Of a stretch of DNA of 49,285 nt, positions 41,567 to 49,218 are shown piece by piece; the stretch's first letter is position 1; every line of letters starts with the position of its first letter. Below the pieces are notes generated by a model. The model did no database searches. It was not told where the DNA came from and saw nothing but the letters and a program-made list of their open reading frames with translations. A program made the translations under genes and the position numbers. The DNA is from Candidatus Zhuqueibacterota bacterium (lineage in GTDB: Bacteria; Zhuqueibacterota; QNDG01; JABMRT01), in NCBI GenBank assembly GCA_013202295.1, contig JABMRT010000092.1:1-49285 (forward strand). The letters run 5' to 3'.

Positions 41567-42460
41567 CTACTTGCGTAATTCTGCGATTAACATTCCGGAC
41601 ATAATAAGTCCGGCGCCCAACCAGGCTTTAGGTGCAAGGGTTTCCTGTAACAGCCACATTGCGAACAAGGCTGCAAAAACTGGTTCGGTTGTATAAATCA
41701 CACCTGCCGCAGTGGCTGTGGTTTTTGGTTGCCAATACATTTGCATTTGAAATCCGAGAGCTGTGCAAAAAAGAGCGACAAACCCAAGAGAGAACATTAA
41801 TGAATATGATGGATGAATAAATGTTTTTTCAAAAAAAATGGAACCGATCATGGCAAAAGCAGCCGTAAATAGAATCGTGAACAATGCAATACTCTCAGAT
41901 TCTCCCTGTTTTACTAACATCTCAACTAAGATTATTTCAAAAGCAAAACTGACTGCACCAAGTAAGGTAAATAAATCACCTCGATTCCATTGTCCAGACA
42001 GTGGATTTGCAAAAATATATATGCCGATTGTTGCCAGGATAACACCGATAACAGATGCTTTCTTTGGTTTTTTCTTTTCAATGAAAACGACAAGAATTGG
42101 GACAAAAACCACACAAAGCCCTGTTATAAACGCTGATTTGGATGCTTCTGTGTATTTTAATCCGACGGTCTGTAACTGCATCCCGATGAATAAAAATATT
42201 CCAAGCGGAAGGGCTTTTCTGTAAAGTTGCCATTGCACAGGTATCTTGCGAATAAGCATAAATAAATAAAGCAACAGTCCGCCGAGGAAAAAGCGAATGG
42301 ACAGAAACAAAAAAGGACTCGAGTTTTCAAGACCTATCTTCACAAGGGGGAAACTGGCTCCCCAAACAAAGGTCACAAATAGTAGCCATAAATCGGCACG
42401 AATGTGAGATCGAATATTCGAAATTGAATTCAATGTATTACTTATTTTCAATAACATCAT
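41567..42460 (-). CDS. EamA-family DMT transporter
   Basis: A 297-residue membrane protein of the drug/metabolite transporter superfamily with ten predicted helices in two EamA repeats (WLLFVTFVWGASFPLVKIGL at the start; LLGAVSFAFEIILVEMLV and AGVIYTTEPVFAALFAMWLL in the second). It probably exports a small metabolite or amino acid. It is divergent from the aromatic operon, but there is no evidence for its substrate. No Shine-Dalgarno sequence is obvious at the ATG. Confidence 0.9.
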   Translation of the reverse strand: MMLLKISNTLNSISNIRSHIRADLWLLFVTFVWGASFPLVKIGLENSSPFLFLSIRFFLGGLLLYLFMLIRKIPVQWQLYRKALPLGIFLFIGMQLQTVGLKYTEASKSAFITGLCVVFVPILVVFIEKKKPKKASVIGVILATIGIYIFANPLSGQWNRGDLFTLLGAVSFAFEIILVEMLVKQGESESIALFTILFTAAFAMIGSIFFEKTFIHPSYSLMFSLGFVALFCTALGFQMQMYWQPKTTATAAGVIYTTEPVFAALFAMWLLQETLAPKAWLGAGLIMSGMLIAELRK

Positions 42461-42774
42461 CTATGAGAATCAAAATACGATTCGAAAAAGAAGCGGATTA
42501 GTGTATTCACAATTCAATCCTGCTTCACAATGATAAACACACATATATTTCTTATAAATAGCTAGTTGAAAAAGTAATGAAAATAGAGGTTTTTTGCAAG
42601 AAATATATTTGGTGGATGAACATGAATAGAATGCGGGAGATGGTTTTTGATTTTTTTCTTCATGAATAATTACTTAAGAGATAATCATTTGGATAAATGA
42701 TTAATGCTTGACTTTATTTTTAAGTATAATTAAATTTACTAAATGATAATTTTTTCTGGAATAATTTTTGTGCT
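42461..42774. other. AT-rich intergenic region before the aromatic leader
   Basis: It separates the DMT gene from the aromatic operon. The right part (42708-42774) carries a promoter. In 42461-42700 no gene, RNA or repeat was recognised. Confidence 0.5.
42708..42736 (+). promoter_or_regulatory. Promoter of the chorismate mutase-aro operon
   Basis: TTGACT (42708-42713) and TAAATT (42731-42736) with a 17-base spacer. A consensus TATAAT at 42725-42730 overlaps but is only 11 bases from the -35. Start would be near 42743, about 32 bases before the leader peptide ATG. Confidence 0.5.
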
Positions 42775-42840
42775 ATGAAATTTATCATCGAAATATTTTA
42801 CCAATATTTGTATTATACTTTGGTAAGTTCTTGGGTGTGA
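42775..42840 (+). CDS. Leader peptide rich in aromatic codons
   Basis: A 21-codon reading frame beginning ATG AAA TTT and ending with TGA at 42838-42840. Its sequence has Phe3, Phe8, Tyr9, Tyr11, Tyr13, Tyr14 and Trp20: 7 of 21 residues are aromatic, with the cluster FYQYLYY in the middle. It lies directly between the promoter and a terminator hairpin and precedes an operon for tyrosine and chorismate synthesis. This is the structure of attenuator leader peptides such as those of the E. coli pheA and trp operons. A ribosome held at Tyr or Phe codons would change folding of the RNA ahead. The weak point is that no good Shine-Dalgarno sequence precedes the ATG. Confidence 0.65.
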   Translation: MKFIIEIFYQYLYYTLVSSWV

Positions 42841-42875
42841 TTTCTTTGAGATAAAGTATTCAATTTTCTGAAATC

Positions 42876-42903
42876 AGGCCCGCATCCCTTTGTGGGCCTT
42901 TTT
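42876..42903 (+). terminator. Attenuator terminator before the aromatic operon
   Basis: AGGCCCGCA (42876-42884) pairs with TGTGGGCCT (42891-42899; one G-T pair) around a 6-base loop, followed by TTTT. It sits 36 bases after the leader peptide stop and 22 bases before the first structural gene; no upstream plus-strand gene exists that it could terminate. Competing pairings are possible: ATACTTT (42815-42821, in the leader's Tyr codons) with AAAGTAT (42854-42860), and TGATTTC (42838-42844, across the stop) with GAAATCA (42870-42876), which abuts the terminator stem. Confidence 0.75.
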
Positions 42904-42925
42904 CACATTGATAGCCGGAGGAGAA

Positions 42926-43210
42926 ATGCCTGATCGTCTTGAATCGCTTCGTAAGGAGATACATCGTTTGGATGCAGAACTGGTAGGCCTGATTAAAACC
43001 CGGATGGAAAGGGTTCAGGAAATTGCGCGATTCAAAAAAGATAACGATATCCCCATACGTGATGACTCTCGCGAAACTGATGTAATCTCTTATGTTTTGA
43101 AACAACCTCATGAGGGAATTGATTCGGAAAAGCTGTCAATGCTTTTCCAACAAATTATGGAGATTTCACGAGACACTCAGTCAAAAGTCTTTAAATCACT
43201 GGATCAATAG
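42926..43210 (+). CDS. Chorismate mutase, AroQ class
   Basis: Chorismate mutase converts chorismate to prephenate. This 94-residue all-helical protein is the free-standing AroQ type: MPDRLESLRKEIHRLDAELVGLIKTRMERVQEIARFKK carries the conserved first helix (Arg and Glu/Asp positions), followed by IPIRDDSRETDVI with the active-site Arg/Asp region. The ATG at 42926 lies after CCGGAGGAG. The longer open frame back to 42890 would start within the attenuator and has no support. First structural gene of the aro operon, 36 bases before tyrA. Confidence 0.9.
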   Translation: MPDRLESLRKEIHRLDAELVGLIKTRMERVQEIARFKKDNDIPIRDDSRETDVISYVLKQPHEGIDSEKLSMLFQQIMEISRDTQSKVFKSLDQ

Positions 43211-43246: not shown

Positions 43247-44350
43247 TTGTCAGATTTCTTTAAAAATATTACGATCGTTGGCGTGGGTGTAATTGGCGGC
43301 TCTCTGGGGCTTGCTTTAAAGCGAAAAAATCCGAAATTACGCATCACTGGAGTTTCGAGTCCAAAAACCATTGAAAAAGCACTCGAAATGGGAGCCATTG
43401 ACATCGGATATCCTCATCATGAAATCGAGAAAGGATTAGCTGAAGCTGATTTAGTCTTTATCTGTACTTCCATTTCTCTCATACTCGAATACATCCCCTT
43501 CATCGCACAGCATATTCAACCAGGCACGGTAGTTACTGATGTGGGAAGCACGAAGCAAATTATTGTGAACAAAGCCGAGAGCTGCTTTGCTTTGGATAAA
43601 TATTTTATTGGCGGACATCCTATGGCGGGTAATGAGGGCAAAGGTATATCCTGGGCGGATCGGTTCTTGTTTGAGAATGCGGTCTATGTCCTGTCCCCCG
43701 CTCAAAATACGCCGGAGGAGAAAATCCAGAGTCTCGGAAATCTTCTTGAAACGACAGGTGCGAAAGTACTTTTATTGCCCCCGGATCTACATGATCGTGT
43801 CGCGGCAACTGTCAGTCATTTACCGCAGATTGTTTCAATTGCATTAATGAATCTCGTATCCAAAAGTCAGGATGAATCATCGGCCTATCTTAAACTGGCC
43901 GCAGGCGGTTTTCGTGATATGACTCGGATTGCATCAAGTCCCTATGAGATGTGGCGCGATATTTTTGAAACGAATCAAGACAATATCTGTCAGTTACTTG
44001 ATGGAATCATTGATGAGTTGAAGTCATTGAAAAGCCATCTCGTTCATGATGAAATGGCAAAGCTATTCGAAAGCGCCGCTTCTGCGCGACTCTCGATCCC
44101 GCGTGATACCAAAGGATTCCTAAGACCCAATTTCGATTTGTCCGTAGAGGTGGAGGACAAACCTGGTGAGATTGCCTCGATTGCATCCTCCATGATCGAA
44201 AAAAACATCAACATAAAGGATATTGAAGTCTTAAAAGTACGTGAGGGGGACTCAGGCACAATCCGACTCTCATTCGAGACTGAACAGATTAGGATACAGG
44301 CCAAGAAGCTACTTGAGAAAACTGGATTTACAGCACATGTGAAACAGTGA
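43247..44350 (+). CDS. tyrA: Prephenate dehydrogenase with C-terminal ACT domain
   Basis: TyrA oxidises prephenate to 4-hydroxyphenylpyruvate with NAD(P), the last step but one to tyrosine. The 367 residues have a Rossmann fold (IVGVGVIGGSLGLALKRKNP), then TDVGSTKQ, FIGGHPMAGNEGKGI with the catalytic His, VSHLPQIVSIALM, and GGFRDMTRIASS. The tail (about 295-367, DLSVEVEDKPGEIASIASS) is an ACT domain, so feedback regulation by tyrosine is likely. The TTG start at 43247 is 5 bases after GGAG. No chorismate mutase is fused; that activity is encoded just upstream. Confidence 0.96.
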   Translation: MSDFFKNITIVGVGVIGGSLGLALKRKNPKLRITGVSSPKTIEKALEMGAIDIGYPHHEIEKGLAEADLVFICTSISLILEYIPFIAQHIQPGTVVTDVGSTKQIIVNKAESCFALDKYFIGGHPMAGNEGKGISWADRFLFENAVYVLSPAQNTPEEKIQSLGNLLETTGAKVLLLPPDLHDRVAATVSHLPQIVSIALMNLVSKSQDESSAYLKLAAGGFRDMTRIASSPYEMWRDIFETNQDNICQLLDGIIDELKSLKSHLVHDEMAKLFESAASARLSIPRDTKGFLRPNFDLSVEVEDKPGEIASIASSMIEKNINIKDIEVLKVREGDSGTIRLSFETEQIRIQAKKLLEKTGFTAHVKQ

Positions 44351-44357
44351 GGAACTA

Positions 44358-45644
44358 TTGATTCAAACCATCCAAAAAGCCAGAAAATTATCAGGTCGGG
44401 TCAATCTCCCCGGTGACAAATCTATTTCACATCGAGCGCTTATGCTAGGAGCGCTCGCAGAAGGCGATACACCCATTGCCAATTTATCCTATGGGCAGGA
44501 TGTGCTGAATACACGGCTTTGTCTTAAAGCGCTTGGTGTAAGGATGGAGGGAACATCCCTTGGGCTGCTTGTGCATGGTGTGGGAATGAGTGGATTGAAA
44601 CGACCTGAGAGCAGGCTGAATTGCGGTAATTCCGGCACAACTATGCGGCTGCTATCCGGGATTCTTTCCGCTCAATCCTTTGAATCCTGGTTGAGTGGTG
44701 ATGCATCCCTGAACAGCCGTCCAATGGGTCGAATCCTTGATCCTCTTTCAAAGATGCAGGCGCATATTATGGCACAACCTGAAGGCACAGCCCCGCTGAG
44801 AATCCAGGGAAGCCCGCTGTCCCCCATCCATTATGACTCACTGATAGCCAGCGCCCAGGTCAAATCATGTGTGCTTTTGGCTGGGCTTTTTGCCAATGGA
44901 CGCACTTCTGTGACTGAACCGAAGTTATCAAGAGATCACACCGAACGCATGCTCCCCTGCTTTGGCGTTCCCGTTGAACGGGATGGCCTCACAGTCACAT
45001 TTCAGGGACCTGCCAAATTGAAAGCCTGTCCGGTTCGGGTTCCCGGAGATATCTCTTCTGCTGCGTTCTTCCTCGTGGCCGGCTCTTTGGTACCGGATTC
45101 TGAAATTTACATCGAAAATGTGGGGCTCAATCCCACCCGCGCAGGTATTATAGATGTTTTGGAACGCATGGGCGCGCAGATTGAGGTACAAAATTATCAT
45201 GAACAAAATGGAGAACCTAGCGCAGATTTGATCATCCGAAGTGCCCCCCTGCATGCAACCGTGATTGAAAAAAACGAAATCCCCCGTTTAATCGACGAAC
45301 TGCCCATCCTGGCAATTGCAGCCACTCAGGCCGAAGGGCGAACCATCGTTCACGATGCCAGAGAACTTCGTGTGAAGGAAAGCGATCGTATTACCGTTAT
45401 TGAAAAAGGACTCAAAGAAATGGGCGTTCAAATTACAACCTTCGAAGATGGATTCGAAATCGAAGGGCCTCAATCGCTGTGCGGTGCCCAGATCGAGACC
45501 TGTCACGATCATCGTATTGCCATGGCTTTTGCTGTGGCTGGCCTGATAGCCACGGGTTCCACAGAAATTCTGGATGCCGAAAATGCTGAGACCTCACACC
45601 CCGGTTTTTTCCACACGATCAAGGAATTAACACATGACGAATAA
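44358..45644 (+). CDS. aroA: 3-phosphoshikimate 1-carboxyvinyltransferase (EPSP synthase)
   Basis: AroA joins shikimate 3-phosphate and PEP to EPSP. The 428 residues include LPGDKSISHRALMLGALAEG, LNCGNSGTTMRLLSG, GDASLNSRPMGRIL, LIASAQVKSCVLLAGLFA, VPGDISSAAFFLVAG, ARELRVKESDRI, and CHDHRIAMAFAVAG, all diagnostic. The TTG at 44358 follows GAGGA. It is 7 bases after tyrA and overlaps aroE by 11 bases. Confidence 0.97.
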   Translation: MIQTIQKARKLSGRVNLPGDKSISHRALMLGALAEGDTPIANLSYGQDVLNTRLCLKALGVRMEGTSLGLLVHGVGMSGLKRPESRLNCGNSGTTMRLLSGILSAQSFESWLSGDASLNSRPMGRILDPLSKMQAHIMAQPEGTAPLRIQGSPLSPIHYDSLIASAQVKSCVLLAGLFANGRTSVTEPKLSRDHTERMLPCFGVPVERDGLTVTFQGPAKLKACPVRVPGDISSAAFFLVAGSLVPDSEIYIENVGLNPTRAGIIDVLERMGAQIEVQNYHEQNGEPSADLIIRSAPLHATVIEKNEIPRLIDELPILAIAATQAEGRTIVHDARELRVKESDRITVIEKGLKEMGVQITTFEDGFEIEGPQSLCGAQIETCHDHRIAMAFAVAGLIATGSTEILDAENAETSHPGFFHTIKELTHDE

Positions 45645-46503
45645 GCCTTACTGTGTGATTGGTGACCCTGTTGCACATTCTATTTCACCTCCCATCCACA
45701 AAGCGGTGTTTACATATATTGGACTAGAAGCCGATTATACTGCGGTTCATGTAAGCTCAGATGAATTATCTGATTTTATTCTGGATGCGCGTCAAAATCA
45801 ACGTCCCGGGTTTAATGTGACAATTCCCCATAAAGAAACGATTATGTCGCTGTTGGATCGCATTGATCCACCCGCTCAAAATATCGGCGCAGTCAATACG
45901 GTGCATCTGTATGGCAATCAATTGATCGGATACAATACCGATGTGCTTGGATGTATGGCCGCTTTGAAACGGGAAGGTTTTGCATCGGATGGAAAAGCAG
46001 TCCTCATTGGCGCTGGTGGTGCGGCCCGCGCTGGACTGGAAGCTGTCGCCCGATTTGGAATGGCCGGGTGCACAATCTTTGATTTATATCCTGAAAAAGC
46101 GGATGCTTTGGTCTCGCATTTCAAACAGTTCCATTCGCTTTCGCTCGGGTTTGGATCTATTGGATCTGGCGATTTGGAATCTCGTGTTAAGGAAGCGGAT
46201 CTTGTCATCAACGCATCTCCAGTGGGCATGTGGCCGAATGTGGATAAAACGCCGTTGCCTGATCCGTCTTGTATTCAGAAAGGCACATGGGTATTTGACA
46301 TGGTTTACACCCCGTTGGAAACACGTCTTCTTTCAGATGCCCGACAAGCCGGAGCCATCCCCATATCCGGTTTGTCCATGCTCGTGGCCCAAGCCATTGA
46401 AGCCGATGCGATTTTTCTTAACCGAACACTTCCATCGGATCTGTTCGATCATGTCTTTGAAATGGCCAGGAATTTAATGGAACAAAAACGGACAAAACTG
46501 TGA
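45634..46503 (+). CDS. aroE: Shikimate 5-dehydrogenase
   Basis: AroE reduces 3-dehydroshikimate to shikimate with NADPH. The 289 residues start MTNKPYCVIGDPVAHSISP, with FNVTIPHKET (catalytic Lys), IGAVNTV, GYNTDVLGCMAAL, the nucleotide loop LIGAGGAARAG and NASPVGMWPN. Full length and typical. It overlaps aroA by 11 and aroK by 4 bases, so the three are translationally coupled. Confidence 0.97.
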   Translation: MTNKPYCVIGDPVAHSISPPIHKAVFTYIGLEADYTAVHVSSDELSDFILDARQNQRPGFNVTIPHKETIMSLLDRIDPPAQNIGAVNTVHLYGNQLIGYNTDVLGCMAALKREGFASDGKAVLIGAGGAARAGLEAVARFGMAGCTIFDLYPEKADALVSHFKQFHSLSLGFGSIGSGDLESRVKEADLVINASPVGMWPNVDKTPLPDPSCIQKGTWVFDMVYTPLETRLLSDARQAGAIPISGLSMLVAQAIEADAIFLNRTLPSDLFDHVFEMARNLMEQKRTKL

Positions 46504-47024
46504 AACGTAATGTATATTTAATGGGATTCATGTGCAGCGGAAAAACCCGCGTGGGCCTATTGCTTGCCCAACGGCTTGGCATGTCTTTTCTTGATACGGA
46601 TGATTGGATTGTCAAAGAGGCCAGCTTATCGATTCCAGAAATCTTCGAAAAATTCGGAGAACCGCATTTTCGTATGCTGGAAAAAAAGGCCATTCTTCAT
46701 GCAGCCTCATTGCAAGGCCATGTGATCTCACTTGGCGGTGGCGCAGTGATGAATGATGAGAATTGGAAGATCATCACCGAATCCGGCAATACAATCTGCC
46801 TTTCCTATCCGCCCAGCATCATTGAATCAAGGCTGGTTAGAAAGAAGGACCGTCCGCTTGTTCAGGAAAGTGATCAATCTGAACGCCTGGCCCGAATCGA
46901 TGAGTTGCTCAATCAAAGACGGGCACGTTACCAGGAGGCCAATCTCACCTTCCATCTCAATCATGAAATCGATCCGGAAAACGTGGCAGACGCGTTGGCC
47001 GGCTATCTGGGGTTTTACCGATGA
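46500..47024 (+). CDS. aroK: Shikimate kinase
   Basis: AroK phosphorylates shikimate at the 3-position. The 174-residue P-loop kinase has GFMCSGKTRVG (Walker A), FLDTDDWI (shikimate-binding Asp), FGEPHFRMLE, ISLGGGAV and RPLVQ (lid region). GTG start at 46500 overlaps the aroE stop. The final codons overlap aroB by 4 bases. Confidence 0.95.
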   Translation: MKRNVYLMGFMCSGKTRVGLLLAQRLGMSFLDTDDWIVKEASLSIPEIFEKFGEPHFRMLEKKAILHAASLQGHVISLGGGAVMNDENWKIITESGNTICLSYPPSIIESRLVRKKDRPLVQESDQSERLARIDELLNQRRARYQEANLTFHLNHEIDPENVADALAGYLGFYR

Positions 47025-48112
47025 ATACCGTCACAGTAGATCTGGGTGCGCGTTCCTATCCCATACATATCAAACCGGGAATTCTGAACCAGATCGCGCC
47101 TATTATCCAGGGATTTTCCGATTCGAGGGAAGTGGCTCTCATCACGGATGAAACCGTATCCAAGCTGTATGGTCAATCGGTTCTAGATCATCTATCCGCA
47201 GCTGGATATACGACTTTCCTTTTTACTGTGCCGGCAGGCGAGGATTCTAAATCCTATCAATATTTGGAAAAGCTTCATACAAAAATGCTTAAGGCCGGAT
47301 TAAAAAGGGACAGTCTGGTCATTGCACTTGGCGGCGGTGTTGTAGGCGATTTGGCTGGATTTGTGGCTGCGACCTATCTTCGCGGTATCGGTTTTATACA
47401 AATTCCAACCACCCTTCTGGCACAGGTAGATAGCAGCGTCGGCGGAAAAACGGGCATCAATCATATTTTGGGAAAGAACCTGATCGGCGCGTTTCACCAG
47501 CCTCTTGGTGTATTGATCGATCCGGATGCGCTGAAGACATTGAGCGTGCGGGATATGTGGGGCGGACTGGGCGAGGTCTTGAAGTACGGTCTGATCCGGG
47601 ATGTCGAATTCTTTGAAACGATCGAACAGAACCTTGAGTCGCTCTTTTCTCTTTCAGATATGGACCAGGTATCATCCATGCTGGCAATGTGCTGCCAGAT
47701 CAAAGCCGATGTCGTCAGTGCAGATGAAAAAGAAGGCGGATTGCGCCGCATCCTGAATTTCGGACACACTCTGTGTCATGCACTTGAAGCGGTCACCGGA
47801 TATGATTATTTTCGGCATGGCGAAGCTGTTGTGTATGGCTTGGATTGGGCGGCCTGGGTATCTATGCGTTTCGATTTGCTGGATTCAAACCAATACGAAC
47901 GCATTCACAAACTTATTGGACGATTTGAACTTCCCCCTCTACCTGAGAATCTGGAGGCGGATCAACTTCAAGCCAAGATGGCGCTGGATAAAAAACAAAC
48001 CGCTGCAGGTCTTAATCTTGTGTTATTGGATGCGATTGGAAGCACCGTAATACAAACTGTGCAGGATGCAACTGATGAAATCAAGGGATGGCTCAATGAA
48101 CTCCGGAAATGA
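47021..48112 (+). CDS. aroB: 3-dehydroquinate synthase
   Basis: AroB makes 3-dehydroquinate from DAHP with NAD and a divalent metal. The 363 residues include LALGGGVVGDLAGFVAATYL, PTTLLAQVDSSVGGKTGINH, LGEVLKYGLI (Glu metal ligand), LNFGHTLCHALE and YFRHGEAVVYGL (His ligands). It overlaps aroK and aroQ. Length is normal. Confidence 0.97.
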   Translation: MNTVTVDLGARSYPIHIKPGILNQIAPIIQGFSDSREVALITDETVSKLYGQSVLDHLSAAGYTTFLFTVPAGEDSKSYQYLEKLHTKMLKAGLKRDSLVIALGGGVVGDLAGFVAATYLRGIGFIQIPTTLLAQVDSSVGGKTGINHILGKNLIGAFHQPLGVLIDPDALKTLSVRDMWGGLGEVLKYGLIRDVEFFETIEQNLESLFSLSDMDQVSSMLAMCCQIKADVVSADEKEGGLRRILNFGHTLCHALEAVTGYDYFRHGEAVVYGLDWAAWVSMRFDLLDSNQYERIHKLIGRFELPPLPENLEADQLQAKMALDKKQTAAGLNLVLLDAIGSTVIQTVQDATDEIKGWLNELRK

Positions 48113-48557
48113 AAGACCGCTTATTCTGATCGTTCATGGACCGAATTTAAATCTTCTGGGTGAACGTGAACCCGAAGTCTATGGAACCATGACATTGGAC
48201 GATCTGAATCGTGAGATTTTACTCTATGCCTACTCAAAAGAAGTCGATGCCCTTTTCTTTCAATCAAACCATGAAGGTGAGATCATTGATTTCCTACATG
48301 ACAAGCGGAACACGGCAAACGGACTTGTGATTAATCCAGGAGCGTTTACCCATTACAGCATCGCAATCCGTGATGCCATTGCGGGAATCAACATTCCTGC
48401 CGTTGAAGTGCATTTGTCGGATATTCATAAACGGGAATCTTTCAGAAAAACATCCGTGATCAAGGATATTTGCATTGATCAGATCAGCGGTTTGGGTAAA
48501 GAAAGTTATCTCAGAGGACTGGATGTCCTGTTGGCCAATATGGAGAAAAACGCATAA
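48096..48557 (+). CDS. aroQ: 3-dehydroquinate dehydratase, type II
   Basis: The type II dehydroquinase removes water from 3-dehydroquinate. The 153 residues have ILIVHGPNLNLLGEREPEVYG (the catalytic Arg and Tyr), FFQSNHEGEIIDFLH, INPGAFTHYSIAIRDAI (catalytic His) and VEVHLSDIHKRESFRKTS. The ATG at 48096 lies 8 bases after AAGGG and gives MNSGNERPL; the longer frame from 48066 lies within aroB without support. It overlaps aroB by 17 bases. Last gene of the operon. Confidence 0.96.
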   Translation: MNSGNERPLILIVHGPNLNLLGEREPEVYGTMTLDDLNREILLYAYSKEVDALFFQSNHEGEIIDFLHDKRNTANGLVINPGAFTHYSIAIRDAIAGINIPAVEVHLSDIHKRESFRKTSVIKDICIDQISGLGKESYLRGLDVLLANMEKNA

Positions 48558-48566
48558 TTTCTGACA

Positions 48567-49100
48567 CTAACATTTAAACGGTTCTATTTCTACATCCACA
48601 TTTAAATCATCACCAATTGGTTTCAACTCGTGAATTAATTCGGACATTTTTATCGCTGGAGGCACAAGAATCACCGCTTTCATCATAAAGAGCGGAGTGC
48701 CGCTCATGGGAGCTTTAATCATATGGGTATCCATACTTTCGATATTCACACCCAGCGTTGCGAGTTGTCTCGTAATCGTATGCACAATGCCTTCATGATC
48801 CGCGCCATTCACTTCAATTTGACAGGGAATCCATCCTGAATATTTCGTGCTATCCCCTTCCTCAGCCGGAGCGGTTGTGACTTTAAATCCATCTTCTCTG
48901 AGTGAGGTCAGGCAATCCTGCAATCCTTCTAATTTTGATTCAGGCACAGAAATCATAATTAAAATCGCAAACACACCACCCAGTTGTGCCATCCGGCTAT
49001 CTTCAACATTTCCATTGAATTCAAGCACCCGTTTGGTAATATGCTCGACCAGACCGACACGATCCGGACCTGTGAGAGTCATGACCAATTGTTTATTCAT
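48567..49100 (-). CDS. Double-ACT-domain regulatory protein, GcvR-like
   Basis: A 177-residue protein consisting of two ACT domains. The first (about 1-80) has QLVMTLTGPDRVGLVEHITKRV; the second (about 90-177) has CQIEVNGADHEGIVHTITRQLATLGVNIESM. This is the layout of GcvR, the repressor partner of the glycine cleavage activator GcvA in E. coli, and of several small amino-acid sensors. The ATG at 49100 is 8 bases after GAGGGG. An upstream ATG at 49199 gives a non-conserved head. It is convergent with the aro operon (9 bases between the stops). Ligand and target unknown. Confidence 0.85.
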   Translation of the reverse strand: MNKQLVMTLTGPDRVGLVEHITKRVLEFNGNVEDSRMAQLGGVFAILIMISVPESKLEGLQDCLTSLREDGFKVTTAPAEEGDSTKYSGWIPCQIEVNGADHEGIVHTITRQLATLGVNIESMDTHMIKAPMSGTPLFMMKAVILVPPAIKMSELIHELKPIGDDLNVDVEIEPFKC

Positions 49101-49218
49101 AACAACATCCCCTCTTGCATGGATTCTGGATAAATTGGTTAGATTAAAATAATTTGAAGGTGTGACAATGTCAAGCGGAAAACATGGGGATTTATTCATC
49201 TTGTACGTTGGAAATTAA

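Follow-up and report, generated by a model that had tools for sequence, protein, structure and literature searches.

A probable tyrosine- and phenylalanine-sensing attenuator before a chorismate mutase-tyrA-aro operon, and elements with the same RNA core before other amino-acid operons of its phylum

The window, i.e., the whole analysed stretch of 49,285 nucleotides from a Candidatus Zhuqueibacterota bacterium, encodes an operon for chorismate mutase, prephenate dehydrogenase and the shikimate pathway. Its genes and the elements ahead of them are the following, with the evidence in brackets.

42708 to 42736, forward strand: sigma-70-like promoter TTGACT-N17-TAAATT, with hexamers at 42708-42713 and 42731-42736 and a 17 nt spacer (consensus scan, 9/12)
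42775 to 42840, forward strand: leader ORF MKFIIEIFYQYLYYTLVSSWV and stop, ATG at 42775 and TGA at 42838-42840 (sequence)
42796 to 42816, forward strand: predicted sensor codons Phe8 Tyr9 Gln Tyr11 Leu Tyr13 Tyr14 (ribosome-occupancy folding)
42832 to 42844, forward strand: antiterminator 5' arm A, UGGGU-g-UGAUUUC (duplex energy; alignment A1)
42870 to 42882, forward strand: antiterminator 3' arm B, GAAAUCA-g-GCCCG (duplex and ribosome-model folding)
42876 to 42903, forward strand: intrinsic terminator AGGCCCGCA-UCCCUU-UGUGGGCCU-UUUU (folding, covariation)
42917 to 42923, forward strand: Shine-Dalgarno sequence GGAGGAG of chorismate mutase (sequence)
42926 to 43210, forward strand: chorismate mutase (CM_2, AroQ type), first structural gene (Pfam PF01817, 2.4e-20)
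43247 to 44350, forward strand: prephenate dehydrogenase tyrA with a C-terminal ACT-like domain (Pfam PF02153, PF20463)
44358 to 48557, forward strand: aroA, aroE, aroK, aroB and aroQ (type II DHQase) (Pfam, ORFs)

The ACT match of TyrA is slightly under the Pfam cut-off, and the ORFs from aroA to aroQ overlap or nearly overlap. An earlier model-made annotation, which had only the letters and the ORFs at hand (the sequence-only reading), had named the operon chorismate mutase-tyrA-aroA-aroE-aroK-aroB-aroQ, and Pfam agrees. It had also placed the promoter, the leader frame and the terminator hairpin where sequence, ORFs and folding place them here. Seven of the 21 leader residues are Phe, Tyr or Trp. 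The terminator lies 35 nt beyond the leader stop, and its hairpin folds alone with -17.3 kcal/mol. Upstream, an EamA transporter gene (41567-42460, minus strand) is divergent from the operon, so the terminator closes no upstream transcript. At the opposite end, a gene for a two-ACT-domain protein (ACT_6, GcvR-like; 48567-49199, minus strand) converges on the end of the aro genes.

Arm A, which covers leader codons 20 and 21 and the stop, pairs with arm B over 12 bp (-18.3 kcal/mol). This duplex, spanning the leader stop, overturns the earlier view that the region has no strong antiterminator. Positions 42876-42882 are common to arm B and the 5' arm of the terminator, and the antiterminator and terminator hairpins are therefore mutually exclusive. 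We folded the RNA 3' of a ribosome placed at each leader codon in turn. The antiterminator was intact with the A-site codon at or before 14-15 and lost from codon 18 onward. Phe8, Tyr9, Tyr11, Tyr13 and Tyr14 are all on the permissive side of this switch point, whereas Trp20 is on the masking side: a ribosome there or at the stop covers arm A. Hence, the element is expected to sense Tyr/Phe and not Trp, and in this model only those five Phe and Tyr codons should act as sensors. The proposal that the aromatic leader is the sensor stands for the Phe and Tyr codons 8 to 14 and fails for Trp20. When arm A was masked, the computed probability of the terminator was 0.98. For the untranslated leader, that of A:B pairing was 0.76-0.84. 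At full equilibrium even an exposed A does not keep the terminator from winning, in the window and usually across loci; the switch must therefore depend on kinetics, as is generally the case in known attenuators.

By single-sequence statistics the aromatic content of the window leader is not significant (p 0.10-0.13). The leader region has 24% GC, 12.7% of dinucleotide shuffles yielded an ORF with at least seven F/Y/W, and by a second measure 10% of the shuffles were as aromatic. The promoter-like match is at background (six sites in the consensus scan vs 4.2 expected). Above chance at the window are the folding of the total leader RNA, stronger than in shuffles (z -3.3), the A:B duplex (p~0.01 vs shuffled A), and the arrangement conserved in orthologous operons. 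The window sequence by itself is no more than suggestive of an attenuator, and because it is weak alone the verdict rests on the comparison across relatives.

We sampled 82 genomes of the phylum, 12 of them in the class of the window. A chorismate mutase orthologue was present in all 12, and in nine, window included, an aromatic leader followed by a T-tailed hairpin lies upstream of it, e.g., MKNQMMYNLFFLFYYSVEYPYYFFINQCRGRDF (L005), MRHDNNIFHTFWGFSYFYFYAPVGGMCRQH (L011) and MLQRSGKHLLTYFGFYFYSWFYCQRSMGRLL (L013). Promoters of the form TTGAC(A/T) stand at the corresponding position in the relatives. Of the nine leaders that of L012 is the weakest, the leader of G005 is weakly aromatic, and G002, from the same family as the window, has neither aromatic leader nor hairpin upstream of chorismate mutase. 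In G007 (L010) the promoter and a GCCCAC/GTGGGC terminator are kept, with ~35 nt between the -10 hexamer and the hairpin, and the leader ORF and arm A are absent, which may reflect either a deletion in nature or an error in the assembly. Judged from these upstream sequences, conservation is broad, not universal. The element diverges too quickly for a nucleotide search with its whole sequence to give useful matches in relatives; the loci of the wider phylum were collected by a TyrA search over the 82 genomes. Most of their operons have the order chorismate mutase-DAHP synthase-tyrA, with the same leader and terminator arrangement. The comparison with relatives that the sequence-only reading had proposed as a check thus came out in its favour: across most of the phylum, chorismate mutase is again preceded by aromatic leader, antiterminator and terminator.

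The statistics were computed on 39 orthologous chorismate-mutase upstream regions of the phylum with a terminator. The density of Phe/Tyr/Trp in the leader was significant (p ≤ 0.05 vs shuffles) in 32 of these loci and the A:B duplex, at the same threshold, in 31. The 20 codons before A were 21% Tyr, 18% Phe and 2% Trp (37 loci). The median distance was 8 nt from the last aromatic codon to A and 4 nt from the leader stop to the end of A (37 leaders). The orthologous G-rich A motif is visible in alignment A1, and the terminator shows two-sided compensatory changes at five of its eight pairs (36 orthologues). Counting A:B pairs in a fixed register of the MAFFT alignment gave modest support (covariation, 6/500 shuffles; 64% paired), and covariation showed no clear gain compared with a slide of -1. 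Families probably differ in the register of this helix, which would explain the result. We used a swap test in its place: the B arm of the locus itself was better than those of other families in 37 of the 39 loci (means of -17.0 vs -12.1 kcal/mol, Wilcoxon 9e-12). Such locus-specific complementarity is, at the level of sequence, a signature of co-evolution.

The part of the element from arm A to the T-tract, with the sensor codons left out, was made into a covariance model (R1), which matched in 54 of the 82 genomes; the window copy scores low (32 bits, E 3e-4). Beyond chorismate mutase, matches precede trp, his, cys and putative ile operons, and the cognate residue was significantly enriched in 24 of the 27 leaders of these types. 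Leaders read MMNLVNTQNILINWTMWWGWWWETCVHSGI before trpB-like genes, HHHHHH before hisG and hisZ, FCCCACSC before cysteine synthase-like genes, and NIINRIIFGKIIIRIR before a class I tRNA synthetase gene, probably ileS. Representative downstream proteins were checked by Pfam; the genes that we take to be trpB and ileS are so assigned by our own finer reading of their sequences, beyond Pfam. The genome of the window has a second copy before hisG (L167, G000:C295:1490-1571, minus strand), with a His-rich leader (MKEMNRQIHNAHNHHHHPTP), the same core and the promoter TTGACA-N17-TATAAT. No attenuator was evident in this genome before DAHP synthase or the two chorismate-binding (TrpE/PabB-type) genes.

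The trpE leader of family f12 (MKAIHSTSAYWFWYWYYYASSGMD...) contains Trp plus Tyr. In f12 genomes the chorismate mutase and tyrA genes follow trpA; in G018 and G041 tyrA is encoded ~8 kb downstream of trpE on the same contig, and chorismate mutase directly behind trpA. A single leader may here respond to both amino acids on behalf of a joined trp-tyr operon. Mixed Trp/Tyr runs, e.g., YWFWYWYYY, occur in the f12 leaders before trpE (L120, L124, L127, L137, L152).

Another set of matches precedes a ParB-like gene: Trp was enriched in six of six leaders, and a trpB-like gene lies 3' of the ParB-like gene in the five loci inspected. The one ParB-like protein tested (~284 aa) had no Pfam match; its family is a candidate for tryptophan or serine supply. 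The leaders of L121, L122, L125, L126, L128 and L129 carry runs of WWW to WWWWW. Elsewhere, L200 (G010:C70:3536-3622, minus strand) has a possible Met-rich leader (TTWGMMSMGMRITTQQVMGK) and a terminator; the gene behind it, by our reading of its sequence, presumably resembles UPF0280 and could have a methionine or homocysteine role.

Seven matches (L143, L145, L147-L150 and L162), which precede clpP-like genes or have no clear gene behind them, were set aside as plain terminators, being low-scoring and having no match between codons and pathway. We also rejected the idea that the core was recently duplicated within genomes: cores of the same genome were no more alike than those of other families, in a comparison limited to matches selected by R1 itself. 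The core had no match in the plasmid collection. Outside the phylum, R1 matched in six of 306 genomes (E ≤ 1e-4). Some of these matches also clearly resemble attenuators: a cysteine-synthase-like gene has a Cys leader, trpE one with WWWW, and an ilvD-like gene one rich in Ile/Leu/Val. The CCCACT/AGTGGG core is seen in L203, L205 and L206, from other phyla, with Cys, Ile/Leu/Val and Trp leaders.

We conclude, with a probability of about 92%, that the region is a ribosome-mediated transcription attenuator that senses charged tRNA-Tyr and tRNA-Phe and acts on the chorismate mutase-tyrA-aro operon. The attenuator reading, already put forward from the sequence, is supported by the conservation, the compensatory changes in the terminator and the locus-specific A:B pairing. 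Between promoter and first gene lie an ORF with cognate codons and an intrinsic terminator, with an exclusive antiterminator that, by computation, a stalled ribosome leaves free and a ribosome at the stop masks. Computation likewise establishes the individual parts and the matching of codons to operons. The element would be a minimal attenuator of three segments: A (the leader end and stop), B, and C. With ample Tyr and Phe, the leading ribosome would reach the stop at 42838-42840, inside A, and mask it; B would then pair with C, the terminator would form, and transcription would end at ~42903. When Tyr or Phe is scarce, the ribosome would stall at codons 8 to 14 and leave A free to pair with nascent B as RNA polymerase makes it. 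The terminator would be pre-empted and the chorismate mutase-tyrA-shikimate operon transcribed. Stalling, termination and read-through in vivo are what we infer from these computations. The least supported step is translation of the leader: inspection of the sequence finds no Shine-Dalgarno sequence ahead of the ATG at 42775, as the sequence-only reading had correctly said.

A terminator in a 5' UTR suits many sensors, and this together with the missing Shine-Dalgarno sequence of the leader would also fit an incidental ORF and a terminator that obeyed a T-box, a riboswitch or an RNA-binding antiterminator or attenuator protein. We consider this very unlikely: none of the Rfam leader families (Phe, Trp, His and others), nor T-box, nor any other Rfam family was found at gathering score in the window or 19 loci, the non-coding part has no conserved structure besides A:B and B:C, and in Tyr/Phe, Trp, His, Cys and Ile-type operons alike the identity of the ORF codons tracks the downstream pathway. 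Slightly less probable still is a terminator that acts partially and constitutively, or that ends a transcript from upstream, next to a chance AT-rich ORF. Equally aromatic ORFs do arise in 10-13% of shuffles, but the divergent upstream gene leaves no transcript in need of an end, and the arrangement is kept across most of the phylum with A:B complementarity specific to each locus. The least likely is that the peptide itself acts, by nascent-chain arrest or in trans, in place of codon-specific stalling: short strings such as SGRD, GGRD and SGKG do recur after the sensor codons, but they are encoded by the G-rich motif A, whose pairing with B explains their recurrence, and the peptide upstream of them varies freely save for the cognate amino acid, which follows the operon.

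Returning to the codon-sensing attenuator, it is tempting to see all these elements as one ancestral cassette, i.e., a G-rich antiterminator arm overlapping the leader stop plus a CCCAC/GTGGG terminator, serving throughout the phylum as a modular sensor that changes its specificity solely by codon swaps (Tyr/Phe, Trp, Trp+Tyr in the joined trp-tyr operon, His, Cys, Ile). We put this forward tentatively and think it rather improbable in so strong a form; the shared core may instead have arisen by convergence. If true, it would amount to a phylum-wide attenuation regulon for amino-acid synthesis.

Codon-specific transcription attenuation is well described mainly in Proteobacteria and Actinobacteria. 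Our results extend it to a phylum in which we found no regulator of this kind described, and throughout that phylum to a tyrosine/shikimate operon. The sensor codons vary with the genes of the operon, and joined trp and tyr genes have Trp+Tyr leaders. The covariance model and the logic of cognate codons could also place unclear genes in amino-acid pathways, e.g., the ParB-like gene ahead of a trpB-like gene.

In E. coli, tyrA and aroF are under TyrR, and pheA has a leader. The survey by Vitreschak et al. 2004 reportedly covered Proteobacteria. We found no paper on this lineage, and none on a Tyr/Phe leader before a chorismate mutase-tyrA-aro operon, in a literature where wider predictions may exist. 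The mechanism is of a known kind, here in a phylum with no described example found and in an RNA with no Rfam match. Similar in its target is uORFC-13-1, a proposed Phe-sensing uORF with a terminator, likewise before a shikimate-pathway gene, reported upstream of aroF only in Acholeplasma and environmental sequences; its first gene differs, and the CCCACT/AGTGGG core is not among the features described in the text (PMC8632094). The candidate attenuators of actinobacterial trp, leu and cys operons share with ours cognate codons and complementary triples common to antiterminator and terminator, and that study found none for tyrosine or phenylalanine operons (PMC1262725). The His leader peptides of bacilli are also attenuators outside Proteobacteria, possibly by convergence, and concern hisS and hisZ genes in Firmicutes only (PMC2965389). 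As in the proteobacterial leader-peptide attenuators (trp, his, pheA, pheST, ilv, leu, thr), the leader ORF is rich in codons for the product, and alternative antiterminator and terminator hairpins precede the first gene. Unlike them, the element described here has a different RNA sequence that no Rfam leader family matches, and senses Phe plus Tyr before chorismate mutase-tyrA-aro genes. A further difference concerns the untranslated transcript: in 24 of 37 loci it is predicted to fold into the antiterminator and not into a protector hairpin, whereas in seven an upstream segment captures A instead. Read-through is therefore predicted here when the leader is untranslated, whereas E. coli trp has none without leader translation.
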